This document shows positions 13,310 to 48,936 of a DNA stretch of 64,000 nucleotides, piece after piece. The notes under the pieces were generated by a model that was given only the letters and a program-made list of their open reading frames with translations, made no database searches and had not been told where the DNA came from. A program made the translations under genes and the position numbers. The stretch's first letter is position 1. Every line of letters starts with the position of its first letter. Source of the stretch: Bradyrhizobium sp. YR681 (GTDB lineage Bacteria > Pseudomonadota > Alphaproteobacteria > Rhizobiales > Xanthobacteraceae); contig NZ_AKIY01000214.1 in assembly GCF_000282615.1 (NCBI RefSeq), positions 1-64,000 on the forward strand. The letters are read 5' to 3'.

Positions 13310-13358
13310 TGGTGCCGGCTGAGGGGATTGAACCCCCGACCTTCGGTTTACAAAACCC
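13310..13358 (-). other. attL: 3' half of a tRNA-Thr(TGT) gene
   Basis: On the minus strand this is the end of a tRNA: anticodon loop TTTGTAA (TGT at 13350-13352), variable loop, a T-arm with TTCAATC, acceptor strand AGCCGGC, discriminator A and encoded CCA. The 5' half (D-arm and start of the acceptor stem) is absent; unrelated DNA begins inside the anticodon stem. This is what a phage leaves when it integrates into a tRNA 3' end, and the integrase is only 54 bp away. Confidence 0.8.
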
Positions 13359-13411: not shown

Positions 13412-14611
13412 TTAAGGTTTGTGATCCTGAACCGAAGGTCGGTTTCCTGATTTCGATCCTGCTGCGGTCTTGCCGAGAGTGACCGTCTGCACCTCCTCCG
13501 GCGTCAGATAGGCTAGGTACATCTCGGTCGTCTTGATCGATGTATGGCCCAGCCGCTGCTGCAAAACATAGATGGACCGGCCGCTTTTCAGCCAGTTGAC
13601 GGCGTGAAGGTGGCGCAGATCGTGGAACGGGAAGGGCCGAAAATCCTGATCCTGTTTTTGGGCCTGTTCGGCAACGGCCTCGACGATGCGACCGAAGTTC
13701 GACGAGGCCTGGCGATACCGCTCCGCCCTCCGCTGTCCAAGCCGGCTCCGAGGGCCAGCCTCTGCCCGGTGCCAGAACAACGCCTTGGTCTCGATCGAGG
13801 CGGGCAGCGAACTCAGAACCTCGAATCCGAAGTCTTCTCCGGCGTCGATCAGGTCGATTACGCGCAGCTTGTTGCGCTTTCCAATGATCGTGAGCTGCCG
13901 GCGGTCCCGATCGAGATGGGCCCGGTCGGCTTTGACGAGCTCGTCCAGGCGCGCGCCGGTCTTGAGGGCGGCCCGGATCATGCCGGCGAACAGTGCCGGG
14001 GCGCGCTCGATCACCATCTCGACGTGGGCCATCAGCGGCAGGACGATCGGGTCGCGCCGTTCCTGCAGCCGCGATCGGCGCCGGCGGCCCGGCTTCAGCC
14101 ACGTGATGACAGGGTTATCGTCGCGCCAGCCCTCATCGACCATCCAGTCGCAGACGCTTGAGAGGGCCGTGAGGTCGCGTTTGATGGTGGCTATCGATGC
14201 GGTCACCGGATGCTTACGGCCCTTCGGCACGGCCGGCACGTCGCGGCGGCTCTCGACGATGCTTCCAATCAGGGCTTTGTCGATCTCGTCGACGTAGAGG
14301 CCTTGCAGATGCGGCGCCAGAACGTCCAGGGACGTCACATAGCGCTTGAAAGTGCTCTCGCTGATCTGCGTGGGGATGAACTTTCCCCAGCCCTGCAGCG
14401 CCTCCTCAAAGGTGCGGCGCTGGTCACCATAGCGCTGGGTGGCTACCGCGCGGTCGCGCTCCGCTTTGCGGCGGCTTCTCGCAACTGCCGGATCGTCTGT
14501 GCGTAGAGACCATTTGACGTCGAGTCCGCCGGTTTGAATGCGGCCGTAGAGGACGCCGTCACGCCAGAAACAGCCCTTTGGAGCCTTCCGGCCTCCCTTG
14601 CCCTTTGGCAT
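13412..14611 (-). CDS. int: Phage integrase, tyrosine recombinase
   Basis: A 399-residue recombinase with the catalytic set visible: Arg221 (TGARLDE), His330-x-x-Arg333 (FHDLRHLHA), His356 (QQRLGHTSIK) and nucleophile Tyr365 (TTEMYLAYL). The N-terminal part (about 60-150) is the usual SAM-like core-binding domain. It lies at the attachment site and is transcribed towards it, as the last gene of the leftward operon. Its start overlaps the upstream HTH gene by 169 nt. Confidence 0.95.
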   Translation of the reverse strand: MPKGKGGRKAPKGCFWRDGVLYGRIQTGGLDVKWSLRTDDPAVARSRRKAERDRAVATQRYGDQRRTFEEALQGWGKFIPTQISESTFKRYVTSLDVLAPHLQGLYVDEIDKALIGSIVESRRDVPAVPKGRKHPVTASIATIKRDLTALSSVCDWMVDEGWRDDNPVITWLKPGRRRRSRLQERRDPIVLPLMAHVEMVIERAPALFAGMIRAALKTGARLDELVKADRAHLDRDRRQLTIIGKRNKLRVIDLIDAGEDFGFEVLSSLPASIETKALFWHRAEAGPRSRLGQRRAERYRQASSNFGRIVEAVAEQAQKQDQDFRPFPFHDLRHLHAVNWLKSGRSIYVLQQRLGHTSIKTTEMYLAYLTPEEVQTVTLGKTAAGSKSGNRPSVQDHKP

Positions 14612-18989: not shown

Positions 18990-19021
18990 GGAAGGCTCCC
19001 GTGAAGTGGTTCACGGGAAGA

Positions 19022-19072
19022 TATTTCCCACAGAAATAATCTGCCGTCAATAAAAACATTTCTGTGGGAAAT
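19022..19072 (-). promoter_or_regulatory. Leftward early promoter with two repressor operators
   Basis: On the minus strand TTGACG (19045-19050) and GAAATA (19022-19027) are 17 bp apart. Operator ATTTCCCACAGAAAT (19023-19037) covers the -10 region and an exact inverted copy lies at 19058-19072, just upstream of the -35. Binding would silence the 18989-to-13412 operon. Confidence 0.75.
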
Positions 19073-19118
19073 GTCATCGGGCGCACAGCGCCATCGAGCC
19101 GATTTTTGGCTGCGCAGG

Positions 19119-19424: not shown

Positions 19425-19458
19425 GAGCCATTTTAGGATGCTCGGCACCGGCGCCGAC

Positions 19459-19510
19459 GTTTCCCGGAGAAATATTGCGGCTTGACTGGAATCATTTCCG
19501 GGGGAAATAC
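19459..19510 (+). promoter_or_regulatory. Rightward early promoter with two operators
   Basis: TTGACT (19482-19487) and AAATAC (19505-19510) are 17 bp apart. ATTTCCGGGGGAAAT (19494-19508) overlaps the -10, and GTTTCCCGGAGAAAT (19459-19473) lies upstream. Both fit the operator found at the leftward promoter. The predicted transcript starts within a few bases of the 19519 ATG, so the Cro-like mRNA may be leaderless. Confidence 0.75.
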
Positions 19511-19518
19511 TCTCACCC

Positions 19519-19734
19519 ATGTCTGATTCGCACCCGATGCTCCGCTGGGCGGCCGAGAACGGCAAAACCGTCAAGGAATTGGCGGCCGCGGCGGGCTGTT
19601 CGGACTCGCACATGCGAAACATATTCGCGGGCCGCAAGGAAGCGTCTCTTCGGATGGCTGTGCGTCTGAGCGAGTTCTCGGGTGGGGTGGTGCCGGCTGA
19701 TGCCTTCTTGCGACCCGAAGGAGCCCGCGCATGA
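19519..19734 (+). CDS. Cro-like HTH regulator
   Basis: A 71-residue protein with a single HTH: KTVKELAAAAGCSDSHMRNI (about 16-35), then GRKEASLRMAVRLSEFSGG. It faces the repressor divergently and starts just after the rightward promoter. There is no Shine-Dalgarno, consistent with leaderless translation. Likely role: repression of the lysogeny gene during lytic growth. Confidence 0.8.
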   Translation: MSDSHPMLRWAAENGKTVKELAAAAGCSDSHMRNIFAGRKEASLRMAVRLSEFSGGVVPADAFLRPEGARA

Positions 19735-19895
19735 CGCCGCACGGGAAAGCGAACCACTGTACCCATACTCAACCCCCGCTTGTTCTTGCTTGTTTGTCCT
19801 ATCCTGATGGGGGCAACAGGAACCTTCAACAGAAATCTTCACATATCCGTCAAAGTGCGGAGGATGTGTCCCGGGACGAAACAGGTTTTGCGCGC

Positions 19896-19997
19896 TCAGG
19901 TTGCGCAGCCGCGCAGGAGCGTCAGGCCGAGCGCGACCACGATCAGCGCCGCCATGCAGATCAGCGTGCGATAGCCGGTACGGTTGATGCGCTTCAT
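19896..19997 (-). CDS. Small membrane protein, 33 aa
   Basis: A short basic N-terminus (MKRINRTGYRT) and one hydrophobic helix (ICMAALIVVALGLTLL) end in RGCAT. It is too short for routine gene finding but well formed. A weak GGAAA precedes the ATG at 19997. Possible roles such as superinfection exclusion are only guesses from position. Confidence 0.4.
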   Translation of the reverse strand: MKRINRTGYRTLICMAALIVVALGLTLLRGCAT

Positions 19998-20086
19998 GAG
20001 AATTTCCCGACAGGAACAGTGCAGCGTTGCGGAGCCGTGCTGCAAGTTCGATCGACAGCGTCGCGTTGCGTGAGAGGTGCGTCAGA

Positions 20087-20359
20087 ATGTCCATGGCCGA
20101 ATCGTGCACATTGCCGCCGGTGCGGCCAAGGAGAACACGAAGAAATCGATTTCTTCGAAACCTCCGGCAAGAAAATCTTCCTCCATTCGGACGCGTCTGC
20201 GTCGCGCTATTCGGCATCGACAAGCCCGGTCTCGCGCTCGCGCAGAAGGCCGGCTGCACAACGCGCCAGGCTGATCTGTACATCGACGGCAGCACGCCGC
20301 CTTCTTACGAAGCGCTCATGGTCGTGCTCGACGAGCTGCGGCCTCGGCGGCGCGGTTGA
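20087..20359 (+). CDS. Possible small HTH protein
   Basis: The C-terminal half (FGIDKPGLALAQKAGCTTRQ, then PPSYEALMVVLDEL) resembles a helix-turn-helix. The N-terminal 30 residues are Arg-rich and not convincing; coding-like sequence shifts between frames here, so the gene may be decayed or start later at a non-standard codon. Confidence 0.35.
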   Translation: MSMAESCTLPPVRPRRTRRNRFLRNLRQENLPPFGRVCVALFGIDKPGLALAQKAGCTTRQADLYIDGSTPPSYEALMVVLDELRPRRRG

Positions 20360-20749
20360 GATAATTGACGGCCGGCATGCCCGGGGGAATGCAAATGTCG
20401 GCGACCGGATCGGCCGTACCCGGCGTCCCGCCCATCCGATGGATACGATATCCGGAGGTCCGACAGGCCCGTCATTCGAATGCCGTAGCGAAAGCAACCA
20501 GAGGCAAGTCCGATCGGCTGGCAAGCCACATGGGCCCCGTAAGACCACGGTCAATCCCGGTCGGAAGGTTGTGAGTAGGCGCGACTGCCGCGCAGCAGTC
20601 TGCCCGCGGGGTGATGAGCCCCGCGGTTCAATTCGGGAATACCCCAGAGGCGTCAGGTACAGCTCGCAAGGCTCCCTGCGGAAAGGCCGTACGCACCTCG
20701 GTGCCGATGACCGATCCCTCGCGGCACTCAGTGCGCGCCTCGACCTTTT
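20360..20749. other. Non-coding stretch with decayed tRNA-like sequence
   Basis: No supported gene. It contains a 14-bp copy (20661-20674) of the D-arm/anticodon-stem sequence of the tRNA at 20750, with GGCCGT at the same downstream spacing. It also has an 8-bp hairpin CCGCGGGG/CCCCGCGG (20604-20626) and a 57-nt segment (about 20509-20565) with acceptor-like ends TCCGATC and GGTCGGA. This looks like the debris of a small tRNA array. Confidence 0.4.
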
Positions 20750-20826
20750 TGCAGGGTGGAGCAGCCCGGTAGCTCGCAAGGCTCATAACCTTGAGGCCGT
20801 CAGTTCGAATCTGACCCCTGCAACCA
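20750..20826 (+). tRNA. Phage tRNA with CAT anticodon (Met- or Ile2-type)
   Basis: A complete 77-nt cloverleaf: acceptor TGCAGGG/CCCTGCA (7 perfect pairs), D-stem GAGC/GCTC with GGTA in the loop, anticodon stem CAAGG/CCTTG around CTCATAA (CAT at 20784-20786), T-arm GTCAG/CTGAC with TTCGAAT, discriminator A and encoded CCA. It is not an initiator tRNA: the first pair is U1:A72 and the three G:C pairs of the anticodon stem are missing. CAT could be read as Met or, if lysidine-modified, as Ile. Confidence 0.92.
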
Positions 20827-20917
20827 ATTTTCGCGGTGAGGCGGGCGGCGACGCTCGCAAACAACCATCTATGGCAACGCGGCTGATGCCACCGCGCCCG
20901 CGGAGCGAGATTTCAGT

Positions 20918-20993
20918 TTGGGCCGCCGTAGCTACAGCAGGTGCACCACGCGGGACTGCTGCATCCCGGCTCGCTTCAGCGGGCGCGGCCCAA
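20918..20993. other. Structured tRNA-sized element
   Basis: A perfect 9-bp stem (TTGGGCCGC with GCGGCCCAA) closes a 76-nt element. Inside are CGGGA/TCCCG around an 8-nt loop and GCTCG/CGGGC around CTTCAG, positions similar to anticodon and T-arms. The D-arm is poor, so it is probably a degenerate tRNA; a different structured RNA is possible. The rest of 20,827-21,136 shows nothing clear. Confidence 0.35.
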
Positions 20994-21136
20994 TTCAGTT
21001 CGGACGACGGCCTTGGCATCCATCAGCCCGGGTCAATGACACGGGGTACCAGAGCAAAGGTTCAAACTCCGTCGGGAAGGGCGCGTGATCGCGCTATGTG
21101 CCCCGCCGTCGTCCGGAGCTTTGCGGGGAGGGCGGC

Positions 21137-21664
21137 ATGAGCGAGGCCGACGGCGATATCAAGTTCGAGCCGGCCAACATGGGTCAGGCACTCGGCGTCC
21201 TGGTCGATGTCGTCGGCTGCTACATCAGCGCCGCGCACACGGCGGCATTTGCCGACGATCGCAAGAAGTCCGCGCAGGTCAACCTTACACTGTTCCTGCA
21301 CGGCCTCTGCATGCGCTCGAAGTACAAGGCCGAGACGGCCGACATCCTGGACATGGTCAGCGCTGAGCTTCGCAGGTCGACGCAAGAGGAAGCGGGCGCC
21401 GATGCAATGACCGCTGATCTCTTGAAGCCAAACGGCAATGACGGCGTGGTCAATGCCGAGATCTGCTTCGGTTCACTCCTGCTCGTCGGCGACGTCGACG
21501 TCTCCCCGGAGATGGTCGCGACATGGGCGCAGGATCAGATGGACCTCGCCTATGACTGGGCGATGCGCGTTCATCTGCATGCCAGCGACAACAACGACGT
21601 CTTCGTCCCCGAGCGACCCGACTTCATTCCGAGATCCGTGAGGCCATCCAGCACCGATAGCTGA
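21137..21664 (+). CDS. Hypothetical phage protein, start of the rightward early operon
   Basis: A 175-residue soluble protein, helical in its first half (MGQALGVLVDVVGCYISAAH). ATG 21137 is chosen because GGGGAGGG sits 4 nt upstream. Later parts include DLAYDWAMRVHLHASDNNDV. No family recognised. Confidence 0.7.
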   Translation: MSEADGDIKFEPANMGQALGVLVDVVGCYISAAHTAAFADDRKKSAQVNLTLFLHGLCMRSKYKAETADILDMVSAELRRSTQEEAGADAMTADLLKPNGNDGVVNAEICFGSLLLVGDVDVSPEMVATWAQDQMDLAYDWAMRVHLHASDNNDVFVPERPDFIPRSVRPSSTDS

Positions 21665-21783
21665 AATCCTCGCGCCCAGTTCAAGTAAGCGTCACCAGCG
21701 TATCCCGACATCACCCGCAATTGCACCCGTCCGGTCACTTCCGGACGTGAGCCTCTGCGTCCCTGCAACAGGAGGGCATCTCG

Positions 21784-22023
21784 ATGCTTGCCGACCAGTC
21801 GTTGCTTCACGCCGCCATTACCGCGTGCCTGGTTCACGTCCAGGTCGGTTCGCTGGTGTGGTTCTGGGTCTATTGCCGCGGGCGCCTGGTGCACGTCTAC
21901 GCGACCGAGCTGACCGGCGCCGGCGACGTGCTCGACTTCATCGGCAACGCCCTGATCACGCTGGTGCTGATCTGTGGCTGGCCGTTCATGCTGATCGCGC
22001 TTCGCAAGGGCAAGCTGCAATGA
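21784..22023 (+). CDS. Small two-pass membrane protein
   Basis: A 79-residue protein with two hydrophobic segments (about 11-32 and 51-72). AGGAGGG is well placed upstream of the ATG. It opens a block of genes that overlap by 1-4 nt. Function unknown. Confidence 0.7.
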   Translation: MLADQSLLHAAITACLVHVQVGSLVWFWVYCRGRLVHVYATELTGAGDVLDFIGNALITLVLICGWPFMLIALRKGKLQ

Positions 22024-22181
22024 CGAGCGCCGAACACGAGCGGCGCAGGCTGATCGAGCGCAATGCCTTGCGCGGCTATCGCGCCATGCCATCGGGTCCG
22101 TCCAAGGCGGATATGCAGCGCGATCTTGAGCAGGCCGTCCGCAACACCGCAGCGACTCCTGCGAAGGAGGAGCAAACATGA
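22020..22181 (+). CDS. Small charged phage protein, 53 aa
   Basis: Highly charged and helical (MTSAEHERRRLIERNALRGY). It overlaps the upstream stop (ATGA) and the downstream start (ATGA). No domain recognised. Confidence 0.6.
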   Translation: MTSAEHERRRLIERNALRGYRAMPSGPSKADMQRDLEQAVRNTAATPAKEEQT

Positions 22182-22513
22182 TCCGCATCATCGACATCCT
22201 GGCGGCGCTGCTGCCCGTCATTCTCATCGTGATCGCGCTGCTGCTGGTATGCGCGGTACGGATCGTCCGCCGAGGGGCCGCGTCCAGGTCTTCGCTTTCC
22301 GCGGCAGCGGACGATCCGTTCTTCTTTCCGTTCGGCGAGGTGCCGACCCTACCGCGCGAGCGCCAGATGGTGGCGCGCGACTTCCGTGCGTGGGGCATTC
22401 CTCTGCGCACCAAGCCTTCCGCAGGCGCCCTCCGGCGGAACGAGAACGGCGGCCGTCCCTCCTCCCTCTCGAGGACGGCCGTCGTTCTCACTTTTCGCAA
22501 GAGAGGTGCGTGA
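22178..22513 (+). CDS. Membrane-anchored phage protein
   Basis: A 111-residue protein with one N-terminal transmembrane helix (about 5-28, ILAALLPVILIVIALLLVCA) and a soluble Arg/Pro-rich tail. Coupled to both neighbours. Function unknown. Confidence 0.65.
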   Translation: MIRIIDILAALLPVILIVIALLLVCAVRIVRRGAASRSSLSAAADDPFFFPFGEVPTLPRERQMVARDFRAWGIPLRTKPSAGALRRNENGGRPSSLSRTAVVLTFRKRGA

Positions 22514-22848
22514 TGCAGCAACACCTCACCCGCATCGAGCAGGCCAACCTCATCGCGGGCCACGCCGTCTCCTACGCCACCGCCTATCTCGACGGGCGCC
22601 ACAATGCGCAGCAGCTCGGCGACAACGCCGACCGGCTTTTCCTCGATCTCCTGGTGGTCGAGACACCCGAGACCAGCACCTTCCTCATCCCGGTGCAGCT
22701 TCTCGTCATCACCATGATGCGCACGGCGAAGTGCGCGCGCGATCTCTCGCAATGGCCGTCGCGGGAGGATCGTTGGCAGTCCGTCATCGCTTCCCTTGTC
22801 GAGCTCGTCACCCACGAAAGCCGCCATCTTACGAAGGACCGCGCATGA
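22513..22848 (+). CDS. Hypothetical phage protein, 111 aa
   Basis: A helical soluble protein (RIEQANLIAGHAVSYATAYL). The start lies in a TGATG overlap behind GAGAGG. Function unknown. Confidence 0.65.
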   Translation: MQQHLTRIEQANLIAGHAVSYATAYLDGRHNAQQLGDNADRLFLDLLVVETPETSTFLIPVQLLVITMMRTAKCARDLSQWPSREDRWQSVIASLVELVTHESRHLTKDRA

Positions 22849-23180
22849 AGCCGCTCTCTCAGTCGCTGACGGAGCTGATCGTCTTCACCGAGGAAGTGGT
22901 GACGAAGCCGGCGCGCCATCATGGCCTTGCCGCCGATTTGCGGTTCACTTCGCTCGCCCAGGAGATCCGCGCCGCCGACCGTCGCCCCGCCAGCGAAGGC
23001 GTCCGCTGCACCCATGCCGGCATGGCGATCGTGGCCAGTACCGAAGGCTTTTTCGCCGGCGACATGGACCCGGGCTCGCGCTGGCTCGCCGCGATCGGCG
23101 CGCTCCTGCCGGCGCTGCGCGTCGAGGCCTGGCAGCAGGTGAAGAACGAGAAGGCGGCGACGCAGGAGACGCGGCGATGA
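22845..23180 (+). CDS. Hypothetical phage protein, 111 aa
   Basis: The first part is helical (LTELIVFTEEVVTKPARHHG), followed by a compact Ala/Gly-rich region. Coupled by ATGA to both neighbours. No family recognised. Confidence 0.65.
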   Translation: MKPLSQSLTELIVFTEEVVTKPARHHGLAADLRFTSLAQEIRAADRRPASEGVRCTHAGMAIVASTEGFFAGDMDPGSRWLAAIGALLPALRVEAWQQVKNEKAATQETRR

Positions 23181-23602
23181 GCGTGCAGATCACCCACTAT
23201 TCCGGCATTGATGGTACGCCGGCGGTCGCCTTGGCGCTGCGCGGCCAATACGAAATGATCAATGACGGCGGCGAGCAGGCCGTCGGCTTGCATCACAGCT
23301 ACAATGGCATCTTGGCGTCTATCGATGGCAAGGCCGTTGGCGTCATCATCTGGTTCGAACAGAAGGACAGCCACCGGCTTTGGCTCCAGCTCGGCTATGT
23401 CCTGCCGGAGCATCGCCGGAACGGCATCTACAATATGCTTTGGGATCAGTTGGTCGACAAGGCGCGAAAGCTGGGGGCCTCTGCGATCTGGAGCGGCACG
23501 GCGATCGGCAACGATGCGATGCGGGCCGTCGCGCGCAAACAGGGCCGGAAGGAAATCGCGGTCAGCCTGAAGTTCGACGTGCCGGAGCTGGCTCGACAAT
23601 GA
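23177..23602 (+). CDS. GNAT-family N-acetyltransferase
   Basis: A 141-residue protein with the GNAT order: a beta core ending LWLQLGYVLPEHRRNGIY, where the Q/RxxGxG/A acetyl-CoA loop is the variant PEHRRNGIY, then a helix MLWDQLVDKARKLGA and a C-terminal strand. The loop differs from the textbook motif, so activity is not certain. It sits in the early operon, so it may acetylate a host or phage protein or a modified base. Confidence 0.7.
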   Translation: MSVQITHYSGIDGTPAVALALRGQYEMINDGGEQAVGLHHSYNGILASIDGKAVGVIIWFEQKDSHRLWLQLGYVLPEHRRNGIYNMLWDQLVDKARKLGASAIWSGTAIGNDAMRAVARKQGRKEIAVSLKFDVPELARQ

Positions 23603-24216
23603 GCCCGCAAGCCCAGCCGCAGGCACAGGCCTATCCCCTGAATTGGCCGTCCGGCTTCCCGCGCTGGAAGCACGGCCGCGGCGCCGGCACATTCAAGACC
23701 AACTTCGAGACGGCGCTTCGCAACGTCAAGAAGAGCCTCGAGCTGTTCGCCAAGGACAGCGGCAAGAAGATCGAAAATCCGATTCTGTCGAGCAACATCG
23801 ACTTCAACCCGCTAACCCACAACACCGGCACCCGCCCGGCTGATCCCGGCGTCGCGGTCTGGTTTGCCTGGGACGGTCTTCAGGTCTGCATCGCGGTCGA
23901 CCGCTATGACAGCCCGGCGGCGAATCTGCAGGCAATCCACCACATCATCGAAGCCCGCCGCGTTGAGCTGCGCCACGGCACGCTCGCGCTGGTGCGCGCG
24001 ACCTTCTCCGGCTTCCAGGCGCTGCCGGCGCCGAAGGGCAAGCACTGGCGGGATATTCTGGAGATCGGCCATGGCGTGCTCGTCACCAAGGGCGCGATCG
24101 AGGGCAACTACAAGCGCCTGGCGCAGGCCTATCACCCCGACCGCGAAGGCGGATCGATCGACAAGATGTCCGAGCTCAACGCCGCGCGCGATGCGGCCAT
24201 CGCGGAGATCGGGTGA
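23599..24216 (+). CDS. J-domain (DnaJ-like) phage protein
   Basis: A 205-residue protein whose C-terminus carries a J-domain with the HPD motif (NYKRLAQAYHPDREGG, about 178-193), needed to stimulate Hsp70/DnaK ATPase. The N-terminal 150 residues are a separate domain of unknown role (LNWPSGFPRWKHGRG). C-terminal J-domains of this type occur in phage early regions and could recruit host DnaK for replication or assembly. Confidence 0.8.
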   Translation: MSPQAQPQAQAYPLNWPSGFPRWKHGRGAGTFKTNFETALRNVKKSLELFAKDSGKKIENPILSSNIDFNPLTHNTGTRPADPGVAVWFAWDGLQVCIAVDRYDSPAANLQAIHHIIEARRVELRHGTLALVRATFSGFQALPAPKGKHWRDILEIGHGVLVTKGAIEGNYKRLAQAYHPDREGGSIDKMSELNAARDAAIAEIG

Positions 24217-24428
24217 TGCGCCAGGATCCCGACGAAGTCGCCCCGCTGGTCGACGCCCGCCTCGCCGAAGCGCTGCGGCAGGTCGGCCAGAGCCCGCTCG
24301 GCATGCCCGCAACCGTCGATACCTTCCGCGCCATGCTCGATCGCGCGGGGCTGGCTCTGGTGCTCAAGCACAATCCCGATTTTCGTCATTCCGGCCTGGA
24401 GCCGGTGAACATGGAGCATGACACATGA
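24216..24428 (+). CDS. Small phage protein before the DGR target
   Basis: A 70-residue helical protein (LVDARLAEALRQVGQSPLG). It overlaps the J-domain stop (TGATG) and the DGR target start (ATGA), so it may help couple translation into the target gene. Function unknown. Confidence 0.6.
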   Translation: MRQDPDEVAPLVDARLAEALRQVGQSPLGMPATVDTFRAMLDRAGLALVLKHNPDFRHSGLEPVNMEHDT

Positions 24429-25318
24429 ACGCAACTGCGAAGATTGAGGACGCCACACCGCTGCTCGCCAAGATCGACCCGGCGGCGCCGGTGCTCAAGG
24501 TCGAGGGCCTTGGCCGGTTGCAGATCAAGGCCGGCACGTTCTTCAACGGCGGCGGTTTCTCGGCCGACACCGAGGTGAAGATCACCTCGCTCGAGCCCGG
24601 GACCGACTATGTGGTGCGGATCTCGGGCGACGGCCCGGTCGCCGTGCCCTATGCCAATCGAGGCGATGATCCGTTCATCGGTGGCTTTCACTTTGCACCA
24701 GGCGGCAATGCCGAGGCGCGCAAGGGCGGCGACACCGTGCCGGCGATCAACCCGTACTCGCTCTGGGATCACAATTTCCGCCCCGCGTGCCTGGACCCGC
24801 GCGGCATGGTGCTGGTCGAAGCGCCCGGCCATCGCTTCTGGTGCGATATCTACCTGACCGGCGCCGAGCATTTGGAGAACGGCACCAGCGCCTTCGACGC
24901 GCTGATCGCCGATGGCCGCGATTGCCCGACCGATCCGGCCACCGGGAGGCGGTTCAAGCGCTTCGACTACGCCGCGGCCTGCGCCGTGATGAAGCACCAC
25001 GGCAAGCAGCTGCTGTCGTTCGAAGAGTTCGCCGCCGCAGCATTCGGCGTCACCGAGCGCACCGCGACGAACAGCGATCCGGTGCGAACCAACCTCGACG
25101 CCCCGCGCACCAGCAAGTTCGGCCTGATGCAGGCGGCCGGCAACATGTGGGTGTGGGGCCACGATGGCGATCCCGACGAGCCGCGCGCTTCGATCCTCGG
25201 CGGGTCCTGGTGGGTCGAGGGCGACGCGGGCTCGCGCCTCGCGGGCCTCGGCGACTGGGCGGACGACTCGGGCGAGAGCATCGGCGCCCGCGGCCGCAGT
25301 GACCACCTGCAAACCTGA
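24425..25318 (+). CDS. DGR target protein, C-type-lectin / FGE-like fold with variable C-terminus
   Basis: A 297-residue protein. The C-terminal domain has the formylglycine-generating-enzyme/C-lectin signature: FGLMQAAGNMWVWGHDG, then SILGGSWW and a final GARGRSD strand. Residues about 253-293 are the variable region, copied from the template at 25,791. The fold displays variable side chains on a rigid surface, as in the Bordetella phage protein Mtd. Nine residues differ from the template, all through adenine changes. The N-terminus (about 20-110) is an unassigned beta-rich domain. Likely role: ligand or receptor binding. Unusually, the gene lies among early genes rather than tail genes. Confidence 0.9.
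   Translation: MNATAKIEDATPLLAKIDPAAPVLKVEGLGRLQIKAGTFFNGGGFSADTEVKITSLEPGTDYVVRISGDGPVAVPYANRGDDPFIGGFHFAPGGNAEARKGGDTVPAINPYSLWDHNFRPACLDPRGMVLVEAPGHRFWCDIYLTGAEHLENGTSAFDALIADGRDCPTDPATGRRFKRFDYAAACAVMKHHGKQLLSFEEFAAAAFGVTERTATNSDPVRTNLDAPRTSKFGLMQAAGNMWVWGHDGDPDEPRASILGGSWWVEGDAGSRLAGLGDWADDSGESIGARGRSDHLQT
25181..25303 (+). repeat. DGR variable repeat (VR)
   Basis: The 123-bp segment aligns without gaps to 25,791-25,913 (offset 610). Twelve mismatches occur, all opposite template adenines: ten A-to-G and two A-to-T. The last 25 bp (25,279-25,303) are identical to the template and GC-rich, as expected of the initiation-of-mutagenic-homology (IMH) end. Confidence 0.93.
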
Positions 25319-25321
25319 TCC

Positions 25322-25341
25322 CGCGTCGCGACAGCGACGCG
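25322..25341. promoter_or_regulatory. DGR target-recognition hairpin, 8-bp stem with GACA loop
   Basis: CGCGTCGC-GACA-GCGACGCG starts 3 nt after the target stop and 18 bp after VR. In characterised DGRs a hairpin/cruciform of similar stem length with a GRNA tetraloop just downstream of VR promotes retrohoming; stem, loop and position all fit here. Confidence 0.8.
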
Positions 25342-25365
25342 TCTCCTCGAGGTGAAGCGGATTCG

Positions 25366-25785
25366 ATGATCGTCAGGGACGACAATTCGGCGACGGAAGC
25401 CCTGGCGATCGTCGAGAAGTACGAGGCTTTCGTGACCTATCTCTATCCGATCCTGCAAAACAGTCCGCGCAAGCATGGCGTCCTCAGGGACACCGTGCTT
25501 GCCCAGATGTTCACGCCGATCGGAGGTCTCTACCACGCGGCGAAGTCGCGGCAGATCTCGAGGCTGTTTGCGATCGATGCCGAGTTCGCCACGCTGCGCG
25601 CGCTGCTGCGTTTCCTGGCGCGCGGCGAGATCAAGATCCTGACGCCGCATCAGCATGTCACCGCACTCGCGCTCCTGGCGCAGCCGGGCGGCATGCTGAA
25701 CGCATGGCAGAAGAAGCTTGCGGCATCGGGCACGAACAGGGTTCCGCACGCCGCCGGCGTGCGGAAGGGGGAGGCGGGGCAATGA
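25366..25785 (+). CDS. avd: Accessory variability determinant (Avd-like) protein
   Basis: A 139-residue basic, all-helical protein (ALAIVEKYEAFVTYLYPILQ; QISRLFAIDAEFATLRALLR; LTPHQHVTALALLAQPGGML). It has the length and four-helix pattern of Avd, the pentameric partner that binds DGR RT and template RNA for cDNA synthesis. The position between target/VR and TR/RT is the canonical order. It begins 47 nt after the target stop. The last residues are encoded by a 25-nt perfect hairpin (25,742-25,766). Confidence 0.85.
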   Translation: MIVRDDNSATEALAIVEKYEAFVTYLYPILQNSPRKHGVLRDTVLAQMFTPIGGLYHAAKSRQISRLFAIDAEFATLRALLRFLARGEIKILTPHQHVTALALLAQPGGMLNAWQKKLAASGTNRVPHAAGVRKGEAGQ

Positions 25786-25790
25786 TGTCG

Positions 25791-25913
25791 CCGCGCGCTT
25801 CGATCCTCGGCGGGTCCTGGTGGAACGAGGGCAACGCGGGCTCGCGCCACGCGAACCTCGACAACTGGGCGGACAACTCGAACGAGAACATCGGCGCCCG
25901 CGGCCGCAGTGAC
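25791..25913 (+). repeat. DGR template repeat (TR)
   Basis: The invariant donor copy of VR. It has 23 adenines, 14 of them in seven AAC codons that would read Asn; all seven corresponding VR codons are altered. AAC-rich templates maximise amino-acid diversity when adenines are randomised. A spacer of about 195 nt separates it from the RT start, matching the requirement in studied systems for RNA downstream of TR to prime cDNA. Confidence 0.93.
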
Positions 25914-26108
25914 GACGGCTCCGTGACTATCGCTCGGCACAGGCCACGGCCTCGCCGGCCGGTCACAGCACAACTGTGGTCAGCTCGACTCTCCTGCTTC
26001 GGCAAACACACTGCGCGGTCCGGCAGAGCGGGGCGTAGCGGCGGTTCAGCGCAGAACTGCCGTCGAGACCCGCGGCCGGCTTCAGCTGCAATTGGAATGG
26101 GGCTCGCA

Positions 26109-27107
26109 ATGACGCGACGCTACCGCAACCTCATCGGCAAGATCACCTCGCCCCGCAACATGGAGGCGGCGCTTCGCCTGACCGCCGCCGGCAAGCGGCT
26201 GACGCCTGACTATCTCGACTTCAAGGAATTCTCCGCGCTCAACCTCGCCGACCTCGGCCGGGACATGGCGAGCGGTCGTTATCGGGCCGGTGCGCCGCAC
26301 GAATTCTTCATTCTCGACCCCAAGCGCCGGCTGATCCAGGCGCTGCCGTTCCGGGACCGGATCGCCCAGCAGGCGCTCTGCCTGGTCATCGGCCCGATCT
26401 TCGATGCTGCCATGCTGCCGCGCGCCTATGCCTGCCGGACCGGCAAGGGCACTCATGCCGGCGTCGTCCAGTTGCAAAGCGATCTGCGGCGGGAAGCGCG
26501 CGGCGGCGAGCTCCACTTCCTCAAGACCGACTTTTCGCGCTACTTCGCCTCGATCGAGCGGGGCGTGCTGTGGCGGCTCATCGAGGCGAAGATCTCCTGC
26601 CGGGCGACGCTTGAGCTGATCGAGGCAATGGTGCCTCGGACGGGAACGGGACTGCCGATCGGCAGCCTGACCTCGCAAATTTTCGCCAACGTCTACGCCG
26701 GCGCCACGCTCGACCGTCATTTGCAGCAGCATCTCGGCGAACGGCTCTGGTACCGCTACATGGACGATCTCGTCGTGCTCGGCCGCGAACCTGCGCATTT
26801 GCGCAGGTTGAAGGATGAGATCGAATCCTACGCCGCGCGCGAGCTGGGCCTGCGCTTCTCCAAATGGCAGGTCTCCAGCGTCTCCCGCGGCATCAACTTC
26901 CTCGGCTACCGGATCTGGGCCAACCACAAGCTCTTGCGCCGAGACAGCGTCATCCGCGCCCGCCGCACCATCGCGGCCCTTCGAGCCCGCGGCGATGACG
27001 AGCGCCTGCGCGAATTCCTGGCCGCGTGGCTTGGTCACGCCAGCTGGGCCGACAGCGGCAATCTGATCAGGAGCCTCGGGTTGCCACAACAACGGGAGAA
27101 CCGGTGA
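26109..27107 (+). CDS. DGR reverse transcriptase
   Basis: A 332-residue RT with DGR hallmarks: LPIGSLTSQ (about 182-190), where other RTs have QG-type residues, and catalytic YMDD (about 217-220) in LWYRYMDDLVVLG. FLGYRIW and the C-terminal thumb-like region follow. It copies TR RNA with errors at adenines. ATG 26109 gives the canonical N-terminus (MTRRYRNLIGKITS); ATG 26097 is possible, and the frame is in fact open back through the TR to ATG 25782. It overlaps the next gene by TGATG. Confidence 0.95.
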   Translation: MTRRYRNLIGKITSPRNMEAALRLTAAGKRLTPDYLDFKEFSALNLADLGRDMASGRYRAGAPHEFFILDPKRRLIQALPFRDRIAQQALCLVIGPIFDAAMLPRAYACRTGKGTHAGVVQLQSDLRREARGGELHFLKTDFSRYFASIERGVLWRLIEAKISCRATLELIEAMVPRTGTGLPIGSLTSQIFANVYAGATLDRHLQQHLGERLWYRYMDDLVVLGREPAHLRRLKDEIESYAARELGLRFSKWQVSSVSRGINFLGYRIWANHKLLRRDSVIRARRTIAALRARGDDERLREFLAAWLGHASWADSGNLIRSLGLPQQRENR

Positions 27108-28429
27108 TGGCCGATCGGTCGGCAATCGAATGGACGGATGCCAGTTGGAATCCGATCCGCGCCCGCGTCATGGAGATCCAGAACGACGGCTCCGGTAGAG
27201 AGCGCATCGGATGGCACTGCGAGCACGTCAGCGACGGTTGCCGCAACTGTTATGCGGAGGGCTTCAACCGGAGACTTGGCACTGGCCGGGACTTTAAACC
27301 GGGGGAGATGTTTCGTGAGGAACACAAAGGCTTCAACAACGGCGAGGTGAAGCTGTTCCTCGATGAGCAGATGTTGACCCAGCCGCTTCGCTGGAAGAAG
27401 CCTCGCAAGATCTTCGTTTGCTCAATGACGGACGCCTTCGCGGACTTCGTCACCGACGAGATGCTCGACAAGATGTTCGCCGTCATGGCGCTGTGCCCGC
27501 AGCATACGTTCCAGGTGCTGACGAAGCGCGCGAAGCGGATGCGGGCATATATGGAACGGCTGTTCGGCTCGAAGGTCGCGCCGCGAGGCATTGCCTGTTC
27601 GCCGTGGAGCGCGCTGCTAAACCGCGCCGAACGAAGCTGGATGGTGGCTAACCCGAACTACATGACCGACATCCGGCCGTTACTGCTTGCGGGCTTGCAG
27701 GGCCGCACGCTTCCTTCCGGGCCCCTCCCGAACGCCTGGCTCGGCATCTCGGCCGAGCGGCAGCAGGAAGCAAATGAGCGGATTCCGGAGCTGCAGAAGA
27801 CGCCGGCTGCGGTCCGCTTCGTCTCGCTTGAGCCGCTGCTGGGCCCGATCGACCTCGAGGACATCGTTCGCCACGGCGACGGGTGCGAGGACCACCACAG
27901 CGCGCTCGAATGCGACGTCGCCATCGAGGACGACCAGGAATTCCACGGCGCCGTACTCGACTGGGTCATTGTCGGTGGCGAGAGCGGCAACCGCGCTCGC
28001 CCGATGCACCCGGATTGGGTGCGGGGCCTTCGCGATCAGTGCGACCGAAACGACACGGCGTTTTTCTTCAAGCAGTGGGGCGAATGGGGTATGCCGACCG
28101 ATGATCTCGGCAACCTCGACTGGCCCTATCATCCCGATCACGATCGCACGCACTGGTTTGACCGTCGCAGCTGTGTTCGACCGATCGAGAGCGGATGGTC
28201 AGATAAGTACCAATGTGGTGGCGGAGCGTATCCGCCGCCGCCATTCGATCTTTTCCAGACGCCCGACTACCTCGACCAGGTCGCGCGCTGTCCGCAGTGC
28301 GGCTGCGGTGAAGCCAAGAAGTGTCAGGGAAACGCCGCTCGCGCGGCAGTCACATGGGTAGGCAAGAAAAAGGCCGGTCGCCTCCTCGACGGAGCCGAGC
28401 ATAACGCATTCCCGAAGGTGCCGGGATGA
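27107..28429 (+). CDS. Phage Gp37/Gp68-family protein (DUF5131)
   Basis: A 440-residue protein with the family N-terminus IEWTDASWNPI and a radical-SAM-like cysteine cluster (CEHVSDGCRNCYAE), then KIFVCSMTDAFADF, FVSLEPLLGPI and VIVGGESGNRARPMHPDWV. The family is common in phages; its reaction is not established, and an iron-sulfur/SAM enzyme is plausible from the cysteines. About 40 extra residues between SLEPLLGPI and VIVGGESG and a Cys-containing tail (CPQCGC) are notable. Coupled to the DGR RT by a 1-nt overlap. Confidence 0.85.
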   Translation: MADRSAIEWTDASWNPIRARVMEIQNDGSGRERIGWHCEHVSDGCRNCYAEGFNRRLGTGRDFKPGEMFREEHKGFNNGEVKLFLDEQMLTQPLRWKKPRKIFVCSMTDAFADFVTDEMLDKMFAVMALCPQHTFQVLTKRAKRMRAYMERLFGSKVAPRGIACSPWSALLNRAERSWMVANPNYMTDIRPLLLAGLQGRTLPSGPLPNAWLGISAERQQEANERIPELQKTPAAVRFVSLEPLLGPIDLEDIVRHGDGCEDHHSALECDVAIEDDQEFHGAVLDWVIVGGESGNRARPMHPDWVRGLRDQCDRNDTAFFFKQWGEWGMPTDDLGNLDWPYHPDHDRTHWFDRRSCVRPIESGWSDKYQCGGGAYPPPPFDLFQTPDYLDQVARCPQCGCGEAKKCQGNAARAAVTWVGKKKAGRLLDGAEHNAFPKVPG

Positions 28430-29661
28430 GCGACCTTCGCCGCATCGATCCAAAACCGTTCCTGCCGCGCATCCCGAAGGGCCCGAAGCCCGACGTCGGC
28501 GAGCGTCCGGAACTGCAATGGCTCAAGATCGACCGCTTGCGCATCGATCCGCGCTATCAGCGCGAGATCGGCCGACGCGGTGCCGACAACATCGTCGCGA
28601 TCGTGCCGAAGTTCAAATGGGCCAAGTTCACGCCCGTGGTGGTGGCGCCGATCGGCGAGGGCCTGTTCGCCGTCATCGACGGCCAGCATCGCGCCACGGC
28701 CGCCGCTGCGTGCGAATTCGAGAGCGTGCCCTGCGTCATCATCCAGGTCGACCAGGCCGATCAGGCCGATGCCTTCGTCGCCATCAACGCCAACGTCACT
28801 GCGATGTCGCCGCTGCAACTGCATGCTGCGCGCCTGGCTGCCGGCGATAAAATCGCCGACGAACTGACGCAAGCCTGCGAGGCGGCCGGCGTCAGCATCT
28901 GCCGCTATCCGGTGCCGGCGAACAAGATGAAGCCGGGCGAGACGCTGGCGGTCGGCATGCTGCAATCGGCGCTGGCCAAATATGGACGCGACGTCCTGGT
29001 CGCCGCGCTGTCCTGCGTCACCAAGACCCGCAAGGGCAATCCCGGCATGATCCGCAAGGCGATTGTGCAGGCGTTGTGCTCCGTGATCGAGGCTGACCGG
29101 GAATGGCTCGGCGATCTGCCGCGACTGATTTTCGCCATGCAGACCTTCGACTTCGCCGCGCAGTTCAACCGCGCGTCGGCGGCGGCGATCGAAAGCGGCG
29201 AGGGCGTTGCCGCGCTGCTGATCGACGCGATCGCCGCCCATCTTGATGGCAAGTTCGAAGCTTCAGTCCCTGCGGAGGCGGCCGAAGAGGTCACGACGCC
29301 TCGCAGGGACGGAAAGGCTCCGGTGCGGGCGGCAAAATCAGCGCCGATCGAGCCTCCGGTGGCCAAGGCTCCCGGCCGTCCATCCGCCACCGGTCCGGTC
29401 ACGATCGGGCGCGACTTCATCAGCCGCGGCGGCCGGCGCATCGAGGTCGCTCCGCGCGCTGCGCTGCTCTTCGCCGCCGTGCACAAGGCGATGCCGAATT
29501 GCGTCGGTGACGAATGGCTGGTCTCTAAACTCTGGACGGTACGTCCGCCGAATGCCGGCGATCTGATCGACCAGATCGTCCGCAATCTCGACCTTGCCAG
29601 TCTCGGGCTCGAGATCCGCACCCACCGCGGCGTCGGCCGCCAACTGGTCGAGGTGGCATGA
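28426..29661 (+). CDS. ParB/Srx-like nuclease-domain protein
   Basis: A 411-residue protein. The N-terminal third has ParB-fold motifs (LKIDRLRIDPRYQRE; FAVIDGQHRATAAAA; VPCVIIQ), with the GQHR box replacing the GERR/GHRR of true ParB. A Pro/Ala-rich linker (about 285-330) leads to a C-terminal winged-helix-like part (VGDEWLVSKLW). No ParA is present, so a role in replication or regulation is more likely than partition. ATGA overlap upstream. Confidence 0.75.
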   Translation: MSDLRRIDPKPFLPRIPKGPKPDVGERPELQWLKIDRLRIDPRYQREIGRRGADNIVAIVPKFKWAKFTPVVVAPIGEGLFAVIDGQHRATAAAACEFESVPCVIIQVDQADQADAFVAINANVTAMSPLQLHAARLAAGDKIADELTQACEAAGVSICRYPVPANKMKPGETLAVGMLQSALAKYGRDVLVAALSCVTKTRKGNPGMIRKAIVQALCSVIEADREWLGDLPRLIFAMQTFDFAAQFNRASAAAIESGEGVAALLIDAIAAHLDGKFEASVPAEAAEEVTTPRRDGKAPVRAAKSAPIEPPVAKAPGRPSATGPVTIGRDFISRGGRRIEVAPRAALLFAAVHKAMPNCVGDEWLVSKLWTVRPPNAGDLIDQIVRNLDLASLGLEIRTHRGVGRQLVEVA

Positions 29662-30734
29662 CGCTGCTCGCCGCCTACGATCGCGCATGCCGGTCTCTCG
29701 CCGAGGTCAAGGACGCCGGCGAAGTCGTGCAGATCCACGACCTTTTCGAGCACGTCAAGCTCTATGCCAGACAGATCCAGGACAAGGCGCTGCTCGAAGA
29801 AGCCGTCGTTGCGCAGATGCGAGCCGACAGGCGCCTGGGCGAGATCATCGGTGCGCTCAAGGAAGCCGGCAGGATCTCGGACGGTCGCAAGCCGAAAGAC
29901 GATGGCTCCGACCGCGTCACCCTGAAGGACATCGGCGTCAAGGACTGGAAGCTCTCGTCACGGGCCCAGAAGGCGGCCGCGCTGTCCCCGGACGCATTCA
30001 AGCAGATCGAGGAGGCCGCGCGCCAGAAGGTTCGCGGCGGCGGCGCCATCCTGGTCGATCCGATTCAATCGGCTGCGAAGGAGGCCGAGATCGCCGGCCG
30101 CCGCGCCGCGCATGCGGCGCGCGCCGAGACCGGCGGCTGTGTCGCGGACCTGGAAGCTCTTGTCGCATCGGGCTTCCGCGCAGGCTTCGTCGGCATGGAC
30201 CCCCAATGGCATTTCAAGACCCGTTCCGATGCAGGCGAGGGGCGGTCCGCCGGAATCCACTACAAGACGGAAGAGATCGAGAAGATCAAGAATATTCCAG
30301 TCGGCGCGATAGGCGCGGACGATTCGGCGATCGGCATGTGGACGGTCGACTGGTGCCTCGAGGCCGCCTTCGCGCTGATGCGCCATTACGGCTATGAGCC
30401 CGTCACCAAGCTCTACACCTGGGCCAAGACCAATAACGATGGCAAGTTGCTCGCCCACGATGATTCCAGCTGGCACCTCGGCATGGGGTATTGGACGCGT
30501 GCCAACCCGGAGGATTGCTGGCTCGGAATCCGCGGCAAACCGAAGCGGCTCTATGCCGACGTCCGTCAGCTGATCGTTGCGCCTTTGATGGAGCACTCTC
30601 GCAAGCCCGATGAGTGGCTCGCGCGCTCCGAGCGCCTGGTCGAGGGCCCCTATATCGAATTGAACGCGCGGCGTCCTCGGAAAGGCTGGTTCAGCTGGGG
30701 GGACGAGCTCGAATGGACGGGGGTGGCAGCATGA
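29658..30734 (+). CDS. MT-A70-family DNA adenine methyltransferase
   Basis: A 358-residue protein. The C-terminal half is MT-A70: MDPQWHFKTRS replaces the usual DPPW with DPQW, then HYKTEEIEKIKNIPV, AIGMWTVDWCL, GMGYWTRANPEDCWLGIRG, EHSRKPDEW and GPYIELNARR. The first 150 residues are a helical, charged domain. The family methylates N6 of adenine in DNA or RNA. The DPQW change could reduce or alter activity. Coupled by ATGA. Confidence 0.85.
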   Translation: MTLLAAYDRACRSLAEVKDAGEVVQIHDLFEHVKLYARQIQDKALLEEAVVAQMRADRRLGEIIGALKEAGRISDGRKPKDDGSDRVTLKDIGVKDWKLSSRAQKAAALSPDAFKQIEEAARQKVRGGGAILVDPIQSAAKEAEIAGRRAAHAARAETGGCVADLEALVASGFRAGFVGMDPQWHFKTRSDAGEGRSAGIHYKTEEIEKIKNIPVGAIGADDSAIGMWTVDWCLEAAFALMRHYGYEPVTKLYTWAKTNNDGKLLAHDDSSWHLGMGYWTRANPEDCWLGIRGKPKRLYADVRQLIVAPLMEHSRKPDEWLARSERLVEGPYIELNARRPRKGWFSWGDELEWTGVAA

Positions 30735-31042
30735 CGTCTCGCTCCAGGGAAGAAAACCGCGACTACATGCGCGACTACATGCGTGGGCATCGGAAGCGCA
30801 GCCGCGAGGCCGATCGCGCCCGCAAGCGCGCCGAGTACAAGTCCGAGGCGCCCGACATCTGGAGCAAGGCCGACTTCGTCGACCGCAGGCCCGCACTCTA
30901 CGACCCGCTACGTGATGGCCCATTGCATCACGCCGACCTCACGGCGTGGTTGATGCGAGACCCGCCGATCGGGCGCCGTGCGATCGACCAGCACCAGGCG
31001 CGCACGTCCGTTCGCTCGATATCGCTGGCCGGAGAGAGGTAA
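30731..31042 (+). CDS. Basic phage protein, 103 aa
   Basis: The Arg-rich N-terminus contains a near-repeat (NRDYMRDYMRGHRKRSREAD) and may bind nucleic acid. The C-terminal half is less charged. Coupled by ATGA to the MT-A70 gene. Function unknown. Confidence 0.6.
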   Translation: MTSRSREENRDYMRDYMRGHRKRSREADRARKRAEYKSEAPDIWSKADFVDRRPALYDPLRDGPLHHADLTAWLMRDPPIGRRAIDQHQARTSVRSISLAGER

Positions 31043-31046
31043 AGCC

Positions 31047-31130
31047 ATGAGGTTCTACGGCTGGATCTGCGCTCTTCTCGTCATCTTCGCCGCCGGCGTC
31101 GGCCTCGCGTATCTGCTCGGAGCCATCTAG
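31047..31130 (+). CDS. Tiny membrane protein, 27 aa
   Basis: MRFYGWICALLVIFAAGVGL followed by AYLLGAI: almost the whole peptide is one membrane helix. GGAGAGAGG lies 7 nt upstream. Function unknown. Confidence 0.55.
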   Translation: MRFYGWICALLVIFAAGVGLAYLLGAI

Positions 31131-31132
31131 CC

Positions 31133-31249
31133 ATGATCCGGGCTCTTCTCCTCGCTCTCCTCTTCGCGGCAGGCCTGACGAGCCTGATGGCCGGCCATCC
31201 GCGATCCGGTTTCAACTGGAGTCATTCATGTCAGGGGTGCGCGCGATGA
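31133..31249 (+). CDS. Tiny exported or membrane peptide, 38 aa
   Basis: An N-terminal hydrophobic segment (ALLLALLFAAGLTSLMAG) looks like a signal peptide or anchor; a short tail with two cysteines (SCQGC) follows. It starts 2 nt after the previous stop. Confidence 0.5.
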   Translation: MIRALLLALLFAAGLTSLMAGHPRSGFNWSHSCQGCAR

Positions 31250-31277
31250 CCGGGCAGCAGCTGGCTGGAGTGCGGCC

Positions 31278-31499
31278 ATGACGCGAAGACTTCCGTTCTT
31301 CAACGCGCACAGCATCTCCATCGGAACGTGCTCCGATCCGTTATGCAGGGCCGTCCATGTTCATCTGCTCGACGAAGACGAGCGCCCGCATGCACAGCTC
31401 ACGCTGAACTGCGACAAGCTCGAAGACGTGATCGCCGACCTGCGCTCCGTTCGCGACCGCATTGTCATGGGCGGCGCAAAGAAGGGGCTCGACAATTGA
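31278..31499 (+). CDS. Small phage protein, 73 aa
   Basis: A compact alpha/beta-like sequence (FFNAHSISIGTCSDPLCRAV, then VHVHLLDEDERPHAQLTL). No family recognised. Its stop overlaps a TTG start downstream. Confidence 0.6.
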   Translation: MTRRLPFFNAHSISIGTCSDPLCRAVHVHLLDEDERPHAQLTLNCDKLEDVIADLRSVRDRIVMGGAKKGLDN

Positions 31500-31846
31500 T
31501 CCGACGCCACCGCCTCGCCAATCGCCGTCGCCATGAAACCATCGCGATCGAGCACGAAGGCCAGCGCTACAAGGTCGGGCTCGGCAGGGAACTGCTCTGC
31601 GACGGCAGCTGCGGCGGGTCGGTGCGCTACGGTCCGATCGCAGAAGTCTTTATCACGGCGCAGAAGGTCAACACGCAGGCCGACGTTCTGGCGAAAGATG
31701 GCGCCATCCTGATGTCGCTGGCCCTGCAATTCGGCTGTCCGCTGGACGTCATTGCCCACGCCATGAAGCGCAACCCCGATGGCTCGCCGGCCTCGCCGCT
31801 GGGGCGGGCTGCGGCTTACCTGGTCGAGGAGAACTCGAATGTCTGA
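31496..31846 (+). CDS. TSCPD-domain-like protein
   Basis: A 116-residue protein starting at TTG (TTGA overlap, GAAGGGG upstream). The core IAEVFITAQKVNTQADVLAK, then MSLALQFGCPLDVIAHAM resembles the TSCPD domain found at the C-terminus of some ribonucleotide reductases, here stand-alone. This suggests a link to nucleotide supply or its control, but no reductase is nearby. Confidence 0.6.
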   Translation: MIRRHRLANRRRHETIAIEHEGQRYKVGLGRELLCDGSCGGSVRYGPIAEVFITAQKVNTQADVLAKDGAILMSLALQFGCPLDVIAHAMKRNPDGSPASPLGRAAAYLVEENSNV

Positions 31847-32363
31847 CACCGAATGGTATCCGGCCGATTGGGTTGACGAGACATGCCCGCCGGCGAAGAA
31901 AGCACCTGCCGAATATATTGTGCCGATCGAGACTGGCTTCGAGCTCGGATATGTCCGCACCGGCGATGCCGCAGCGGCGAAGTTCGCCGCGCACTACAAC
32001 ACGATCTACAATCAGCCCCTGTCGCTCGGCGACGTCGTGGATTTCATCAGCTGCGAGCGCCTCGGCGACGTGGATGTGACGCTGCGGCGCGACGGGACCT
32101 ATGTCCTGCATGGGACGCTTCCGCGCGTTTACAACGCCCTGATCGTCGACGGCGATATCGATACGCTTTGCGACAGCTTCGAGGAGATGACGCGGCGCAT
32201 CCAGGGTCGCGGGTGGGACGAACTCGGTACACTCCTTCTGACCGACGTCGACGAACGCCGTATGAGCATGAGCTTTGCGAATTGGTCGGACCCCGTGCCG
32301 TACCTCTTCGAGATTGTCGACGGCAAACCCGTGTTCACTCCTGTGCCGGTGGCGAAGCAATGA
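31839..32363 (+). CDS. Hypothetical phage protein, 174 aa
   Basis: A soluble, acidic protein (MSDTEWYPADWVDETCPPAK; DVDVTLRRDGTYVLHGTLPR). It overlaps the TSCPD-like gene by 8 nt. No family recognised. Confidence 0.6.
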   Translation: MSDTEWYPADWVDETCPPAKKAPAEYIVPIETGFELGYVRTGDAAAAKFAAHYNTIYNQPLSLGDVVDFISCERLGDVDVTLRRDGTYVLHGTLPRVYNALIVDGDIDTLCDSFEEMTRRIQGRGWDELGTLLLTDVDERRMSMSFANWSDPVPYLFEIVDGKPVFTPVPVAKQ

Positions 32364-32524: not shown

Positions 32525-32539
32525 AGGGAATCCGCCGCC

Positions 32540-48929: not shown

Positions 48930-48936
48930 GGGCAGC

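Follow-up and report, generated by a model that had tools for sequence, protein, structure and literature searches.

A BPP-1-type diversity-generating retroelement, very probably complete, among the non-structural genes of a Bradyrhizobium prophage

Does a prophage of Bradyrhizobium sp. YR681 carry a complete diversity-generating retroelement (DGR), and which protein would such an element vary? The question is raised by a stretch of 64,000 nucleotides, hereafter called the window (assembly GCF_000282615.1, contig NZ_AKIY01000214.1, positions 1 to 64,000), in which an initial annotation had described a template repeat (TR), a variable repeat (VR), an Avd-like gene, and a reverse transcriptase (RT). 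According to our analysis, the locus is very probably a complete BPP-1-type DGR residing in a 65-kb tailed-phage prophage. The variable protein (VP), Avd, the TR/VR pair, and the RT are all present as had been claimed, and a hairpin, a spacer RNA, and a G/C run are further parts of the cassette that the earlier description did not include. The coordinates of all features are collected in Table 1.

The repeat pair was recounted from the sequence, which agrees with an ungapped TR/VR pair of 123 bases at an offset of 610 with 12 mismatches, and a repeat finder without adenine weighting recovers the same pair (127 nt, 90%). As annotated, the mismatches are confined to TR adenines (12 of 23 A, 0 of 100 other bases; the TR holds 23 A, 44 C, 43 G, and 13 T), ten being A to G and two A to T; the probability that 12 randomly dealt mismatches would all land on 23 of 123 positions is 9.4e-11. 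In the reading frame of VP, the TR adenines occupy codon position 1 ten times, position 2 thirteen times, and position 3 never. A change of adenine to any base creates a stop in none of the TR codons, and seven AAC codons together with nine other adenine-bearing codons are free to vary. All seven AAC codons are indeed altered in the VR, with nine codons, and thus nine residues, changed in all. TR and VR are the sole matches to this repeat in the 7.83-Mb assembly, and the genome has one VP, the second VP match being the TR itself.

The same pattern was found in related loci, numbered with the prefix L. The scans gave 19 loci in viral contigs, 3 in a set of one genome per species, and 6 in 391 host-family genomes (E <= 1e-60, window included), while a viral-contig scan with VP as the query returned two loci only, both already known. 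Together with the window, 21 distinct loci have a readable pair, giving 27 TR/VR pairs in total; the pooled count leaves out the window's own genome (L001-L005) and prophage (L006, L025), duplicates (L026, the same record as L012; L020, equal to L019; L034, equal to L022; L027, equal to L033), a locus with a 2-base VR insertion (L008), and two with no pair within the available stretch (L014, L017). Across the 27 pairs, 317 of 645 TR adenines are changed against 12 of 2,703 other bases, and the adenine changes comprise 177 A to G, 83 A to T, and 57 A to C. Variation at non-adenine positions in relatives, which the initial annotation had named as an outcome that would speak against a DGR, is therefore rare but not nil. 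The share of A to G in the window (10 of 12) was tried as a special feature and rejected: the other 26 pairs have 167 of 305 (one-sided P = 0.04), and the bias is not taken as a finding because it was picked after looking.

Away from adenines, the VRs follow their own templates. Where two TRs carry different bases, neither of them A, both VRs match their own TR in 3,735 of 3,765 comparisons (210 locus pairs), which were made with the first VR per locus and are independent neither of one another (49 non-A polymorphic columns) nor of the low non-A count. Between the window and its nearest relative, L007, 186 of the 755 VP bases upstream of the VR are different, and each of the four TR differences recurs in the VRs. 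At least 6 of the 21 loci (L010, L012, L013, L015, L016, and L032; several of the 21 hold little upstream DNA) possess two VPs for one TR; these paired VPs are 29-42% different upstream of the VR, with only 0, 0, 0, 1, 2, and 0 non-A differences inside it, respectively. TR and VR have thus evolved in concert by homing, and since the VRs follow the non-A changes of their own TRs, homing continued, and the element was still active once these lineages had separated. The proposal that the DGR "is or was recently active" stands for the lineage, while the last event in this lysogen is not dated by such evidence. DGRs with several VRs are reported in passages of PMC6642488 and PMC3521204, the former of which also describes a Bradyrhizobium DGR with highly repetitive TRs.

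Two loci deserve separate mention. In L008 (4046-4205), a 2-base insertion in the VR relative to the TR shifts the VP frame, while the flanking in-repeat substitutions lie at TR adenines; the insertion is either a homing slip or an assembly error. In L031 (G039:C16:709,592-710,239), the RT match begins at residue 114 and has an in-frame TGA, so that the DGR is probably decayed; its TR/VR changes are still A-only (9/9).

The Avd-like gene matches the NCBI equivalog NF033474 (6.4e-29, 100.3 bits against a cut-off of 80), bAvd (2.4e-25), and solved Avd/Bbp7 (8ub7 chain B, 4dwl). The RT start is best set at the position in Table 1, a longer open reading frame (ORF) from 25,704 passing through the TR, and the ORFs of VP, Avd, and RT are all open. 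Both GSLTSQ and YMDD, instances of the GxxxSQ and YMDD motifs of DGR-clade RTs, were read in the RT protein, which is the sole RVT_1 match in its own genome assembly. Among solved structures, the RT matches 8ub7 chain A best (E 2.3e-106), a chain deposited together with Avd, and among phage proteins BPP-1 brt, at 52% identity. An RT tree rooted at the midpoint was built from 27 RTs, namely 16 DGR, 5 group II, and 6 retron-like sequences, the outgroups coming from the same bacterial family; all five group II rows pass their own model cut-off, only L051 does so among the six retron-like rows, and the latter carry a long-branch warning. All 16 DGR rows (the window RT and 15 others) lie on one side of a branch with support 99/97, the window RT pairs with L007 (100/99), and BPP-1 brt joins that branch (100/99). 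Grouping with group II intron or retron RTs, the second outcome named beforehand as contrary, was thus not observed. A group II intron or retron RT was rejected as an identity on these separate branches and on curated-model scores of 87.5 versus 300 and 42.9 versus 235; distant RT homology is common to both kinds.

Just past the VP stop codon, the hairpin stem begins 18 bp after the VR end, which fits the published pattern: passages of Guo et al. (PMC3240598) describe GC-rich stems of 7-10 bp with GRNA loops 4-34 bp after the VR, and show that the hairpin is required for efficient homing in BPP-1. A perfect stem of at least 7 bp with a GRNA loop follows 17 of the 27 VRs, compared with 0.05% of base-shuffled flanks, and 24 of 27 when one mismatch is allowed (0.07% of shuffled flanks); the same test after the TR gave 0 of 21. 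The stems vary in sequence among relatives, and the loops read GACA, GGCA, GAAA, or GGAA. The gap between TR and RT holds a DGR spacer RNA that covers the whole Rfam model with 83.5 bits against a gathering threshold of 50 (E 1.3e-13). In an alignment with 17 relatives and BPP-1, the adenine of its GGTCAGC core is A in 18 of 19 rows (G in L021) and corresponds to Sp position 56, which we take to be the priming adenine of BPP-1. Priming of cDNA by an internal spacer adenine is described in a passage of PMC12875486. Finally, VR and TR diverge at 25,304/25,914, after GTGAC, in the manner of IMH and IMH* of BPP-1 (names as in passages of PMC3240598), and the G/C run near the VR 3' end is the counterpart of the one in the BPP-1 IMH.

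By analogy with BPP-1, we infer that the RT-Avd complex would bind the TR-spacer RNA, the spacer adenine at 25,982 would prime cDNA synthesis into the TR, the RT would misread template adenines, and the mutated cDNA would take the place of the VR at the VP gene's 3' end, with the G/C run and hairpin as marks of the site. The 16 adenine-bearing codons would then let the lectin face vary without introducing stops. The likeness to the BPP-1 DGR (mtd-avd-TR-brt) extends to gene order and strand, the presence of Avd and Mtd homologues, TR/VR changes restricted to A within the repeat, the G/C run and 8-bp GRNA-loop hairpin after the VR, and a spacer RNA that shares the GGTCAGC core and its adenine; the RT in the brt branch and the mtd-avd-TR-brt order are as in the BPP-1/Mtd subtype. 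It differs in that Mtd has 381 aa while VP has 297, and in that the gene immediately before mtd in BPP-1 is bbp9, a putative tail-fibre gene, whereas the window DGR lies among non-structural genes upstream of terminase. The window prophage also has tail genes of the kind found in long-tailed phages, namely tape measure, distal tail protein, and fibre J, whereas BPP-1 is short-tailed.

VP matches Pfam mtd_2nd (4.8e-8), PHROG 11262, a tail protein family (1.1e-109, profile positions 63-392 of 393), and solved structures of Mtd, with 1yu3 as the top match (E 7.2e-48) and an alignment that starts at Mtd residue 58 and runs almost to the end; its best phage homologues are tail proteins as well. The homology to Mtd spans the VR end, in keeping with the claim that the VR lies in a lectin-like C-terminus. 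VP is not a full-length Mtd with N-terminal beta-prism: it has no counterpart of Mtd residues 1-57, and neither the window nor any of the six aligned relatives has a residue in alignment columns 8-68. According to a passage of PMC10743442, the N-terminal prism presumably attaches Mtd to the tail fibre. Loss of this part was considered as a mark of a moved DGR, an idea rejected on the ground that L022 and L024, whose neighbours are structural genes, are also without it; its absence alone therefore does not say that VP left the virion. LR745707.1 and LR745708.1, two records named Escherichia phage T7 that are perhaps engineered, have gene 17 products matching VP at 36-38%.

The prophage is bounded by 47-bp direct repeats, of which the right copy lies beyond the window and forms the 3' portion of a tRNA-Thr gene. 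Its layout runs from the integrase (13,412) through primases (36,604 and 39,454) and terminase (44,445) to portal, protease, and head genes, after which come the tail genes (57,446 onwards), fibre J (63,786), and an endolysin (72 kb). The DGR sits between integrase and primases, and VP is not placed with the tail genes, being more than 30 kb from them. Start and stop codons overlap at ORF71/VP, RT/DUF5131, DUF5131/ParB-like, and ParB-like/MT-A70, and the DGR is therefore probably in one operon, co-transcribed with non-structural genes; if so, synthesis of RT and TR-RNA would precede or coincide with the replication of phage DNA. A promoter and terminator scan of 19,000-33,000 was uninformative, its single promoter-like site and 9 terminator-like sites comparing with shuffle means of 1.5 and 9.7, respectively.

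This placement is shared by the clade. Neighbours were surveyed, by comparison with window genes or by PHROG matches of selected ORFs, in 14 loci with RT identity of at least 69% (the window, L007, L008, L010, L011, L012, L013, L015, L016, L018, L019, L021, L032, and L033), the clade members L009, L014, L017, L028, L029, and L031 being outside the survey. All 14 have a non-structural or unassigned early-sort neighbour, namely methyltransferase, helicase, ParB-like, processivity factor, replication initiation, integrase, or DUF5131; in L021 it is DUF5131 only, and in L010 a minor tail gene is present as well, 3 kb past the RT. A terminase match lies on the same strand 5-18 kb downstream of the RT in L008, L012, L013, and L033 (17 kb in the window), and on the opposite strand in L016, L019 (weak match), and L021. 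These related prophages and contigs (Afipia sp. 64-13, of a genus placed in Nitrobacteraceae, and IMG/VR; RT 69-89%) resemble the window in cassette, spacer RNA, and VP length (about 294-316 aa, L018 being 335 as called and end-cut ones omitted), and most have the GRNA hairpin; the window, with one VP per TR, differs from those that have two. The Parvibaculum indicum locus (L022/L034) and metagenome loci L023 and L024 (RT 54-56%) keep the VP-Avd-TR-RT order, and L022, L023, and L024 together have 36 of 37 VR changes at TR adenines and the GRNA hairpin (with one mismatch in L022). Unlike the window, L022 and L024, which are outside the clade in the tree, adjoin terminase, protease, or major head genes.

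By analogy with Mtd, VP would bind a receptor on the host surface, and a receptor-binding protein of the virion is its most likely role. It is unlikely that the same machine instead varies a protein that is no part of virion receptor binding, made early or in the lysogen, such as a variable binder in the cell or on its surface. Such a role would agree with a cassette whose two ends overlap the start and stop codons of its neighbours, in a row with DUF5131, ParB-like, and MT-A70 genes, and with the non-structural neighbours of the nearest relatives. However, the PHROG family and the best phage homologues of VP are tail proteins, the missing N-terminal part is not tied to place, as L022 and L024 testify, and an early gene place is compatible with a role in the tail. 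Likewise unlikely is a wider version for the whole clade, in which the DGR, in a translationally coupled non-structural row, has a short Mtd-like target without the N-terminal prism, produced early or in the lysogen, whose ligand is not, or not only, the surface of the next host, the two targets per template seen in at least 6 of 21 loci being two independently variable binders.

Several points weigh against a complete DGR that diversifies a receptor-binding protein. The receptor-binding use of VP is putative, because the N-terminal part of Mtd is missing from VP and the VP gene lies far from the tail genes. Its lectin fold rests on sequence homology to Mtd, since the AlphaFold model (22-row alignment) is poor, with a mean pLDDT of 55.5 and values below 40 from about residue 211 on. 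Among relatives, the 12 non-A changes do exist, and pair ends lean towards A-only because the pair-finding scan charged non-A mismatches ten times A mismatches. Three of the 27 VRs fail the hairpin test: L007, the nearest relative, has no hairpin in a second scan either, L011 has a 6-bp stem, and the upstream VP of L013 has a 7-bp stem farther off. Finally, the data, one isolate's assembly, hold one VR state and no sign of activity in the strain itself.

The last point bears on whether the element is a fossil, with its parts intact but no longer homing in this lysogen lineage, which we regard as quite improbable. Besides the single VR state, this would fit the only other record found of the prophage (IMG/VR, L006), which is identical over the 10,996 bases compared and probably comes from the same strain, and the in-frame TGA of L031. 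However, the ORFs are open, none of the 100 non-A positions differs between TR and VR, spacer RNA and hairpin are present, and every TR difference from L007 recurs in the VRs despite the divergence of VP upstream. An ordinary duplication with an adenine bias by chance or by another mutator, for which we found no supporting point, is practically excluded by the probability of the window pattern, by the pooled counts over 27 pairs, and by the RT, Avd, and spacer RNA being in place.

Table 1. Positions of the DGR parts and neighbouring prophage features in the window.
Feature	Position	Strand	Basis or remark
Probable left attachment site, 47-bp direct repeat	13311..13357	+	right copy at contig 78,553-78,599
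Prophage integrase gene	13412..14611	-	PHROG 1 integrase, 9.6e-39
71-aa ORF (ORF71), stop overlaps VP start (ATGA)	24213..24428	+	no PHROG match
Variable protein gene (VP, 297 aa), Mtd family, VR in C-terminal end	24425..25318	+	Pfam, PHROG, Mtd structures
VR (variable repeat)	25181..25303	+	repeat finding and recount
16-base G/C run near VR 3' end	25282..25297	+	counterpart of G/C run in BPP-1 IMH
Post-VR DNA hairpin, 8-bp perfect stem, GACA (GRNA) loop	25322..25341	+	just past VP stop codon
avd (accessory variability determinant, 139 aa)	25366..25785	+	NF033474, bAvd, PDB 8ub7 chain B and 4dwl
TR (template repeat)	25791..25913	+	repeat finding and recount
DGR spacer RNA (Rfam RF03022 Phage_DGR, model 1-127 of 127)	25932..26080	+	83.5 bits
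Adenine aligned with BPP-1 Sp position 56	25982	+	spacer alignment with 17 relatives and BPP-1
Reverse transcriptase (332 aa), GSLTSQ and YMDD	26109..27107	+	profile, structure, tree
DUF5131 gene, start overlaps RT stop (TGATG)	27107..28429	+	profile match
ParB-like gene, start overlaps DUF5131 stop	28426..29661	+	PHROG match
MT-A70 DNA methyltransferase gene, start overlaps ParB-like stop	29658..30734	+	profile and PHROG match

Elsewhere in the prophage, a tRNA-Met gene is present at 20,750-20,826, and this DNA also aligns upstream of the DGR in L007 and L012. The head maturation protease gene at 48,040-49,677 has about 310 residues ahead of the protease match. Between head and tail genes, the region of 53,267-54,707 matches a glycosyltransferase PHROG and an alpha-2,3-sialyltransferase PHROG.

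The machine itself is already known, and what is unusual here is only its clade-wide place among non-structural genes, together with a short VP. No open-licence paper on this prophage, or on DGRs among early genes, was found by title or start of abstract. With this locus, the BPP-1 branch gains an intact, almost textbook example from a prophage of an Afipia-family bacterium, and the relatives of the element differ in place and target number. The clade would be a setting in which to ask if the product of a DGR target gene among non-structural genes still serves in receptor binding, and if retrohoming is coupled, through early expression, to the replication of phage DNA.

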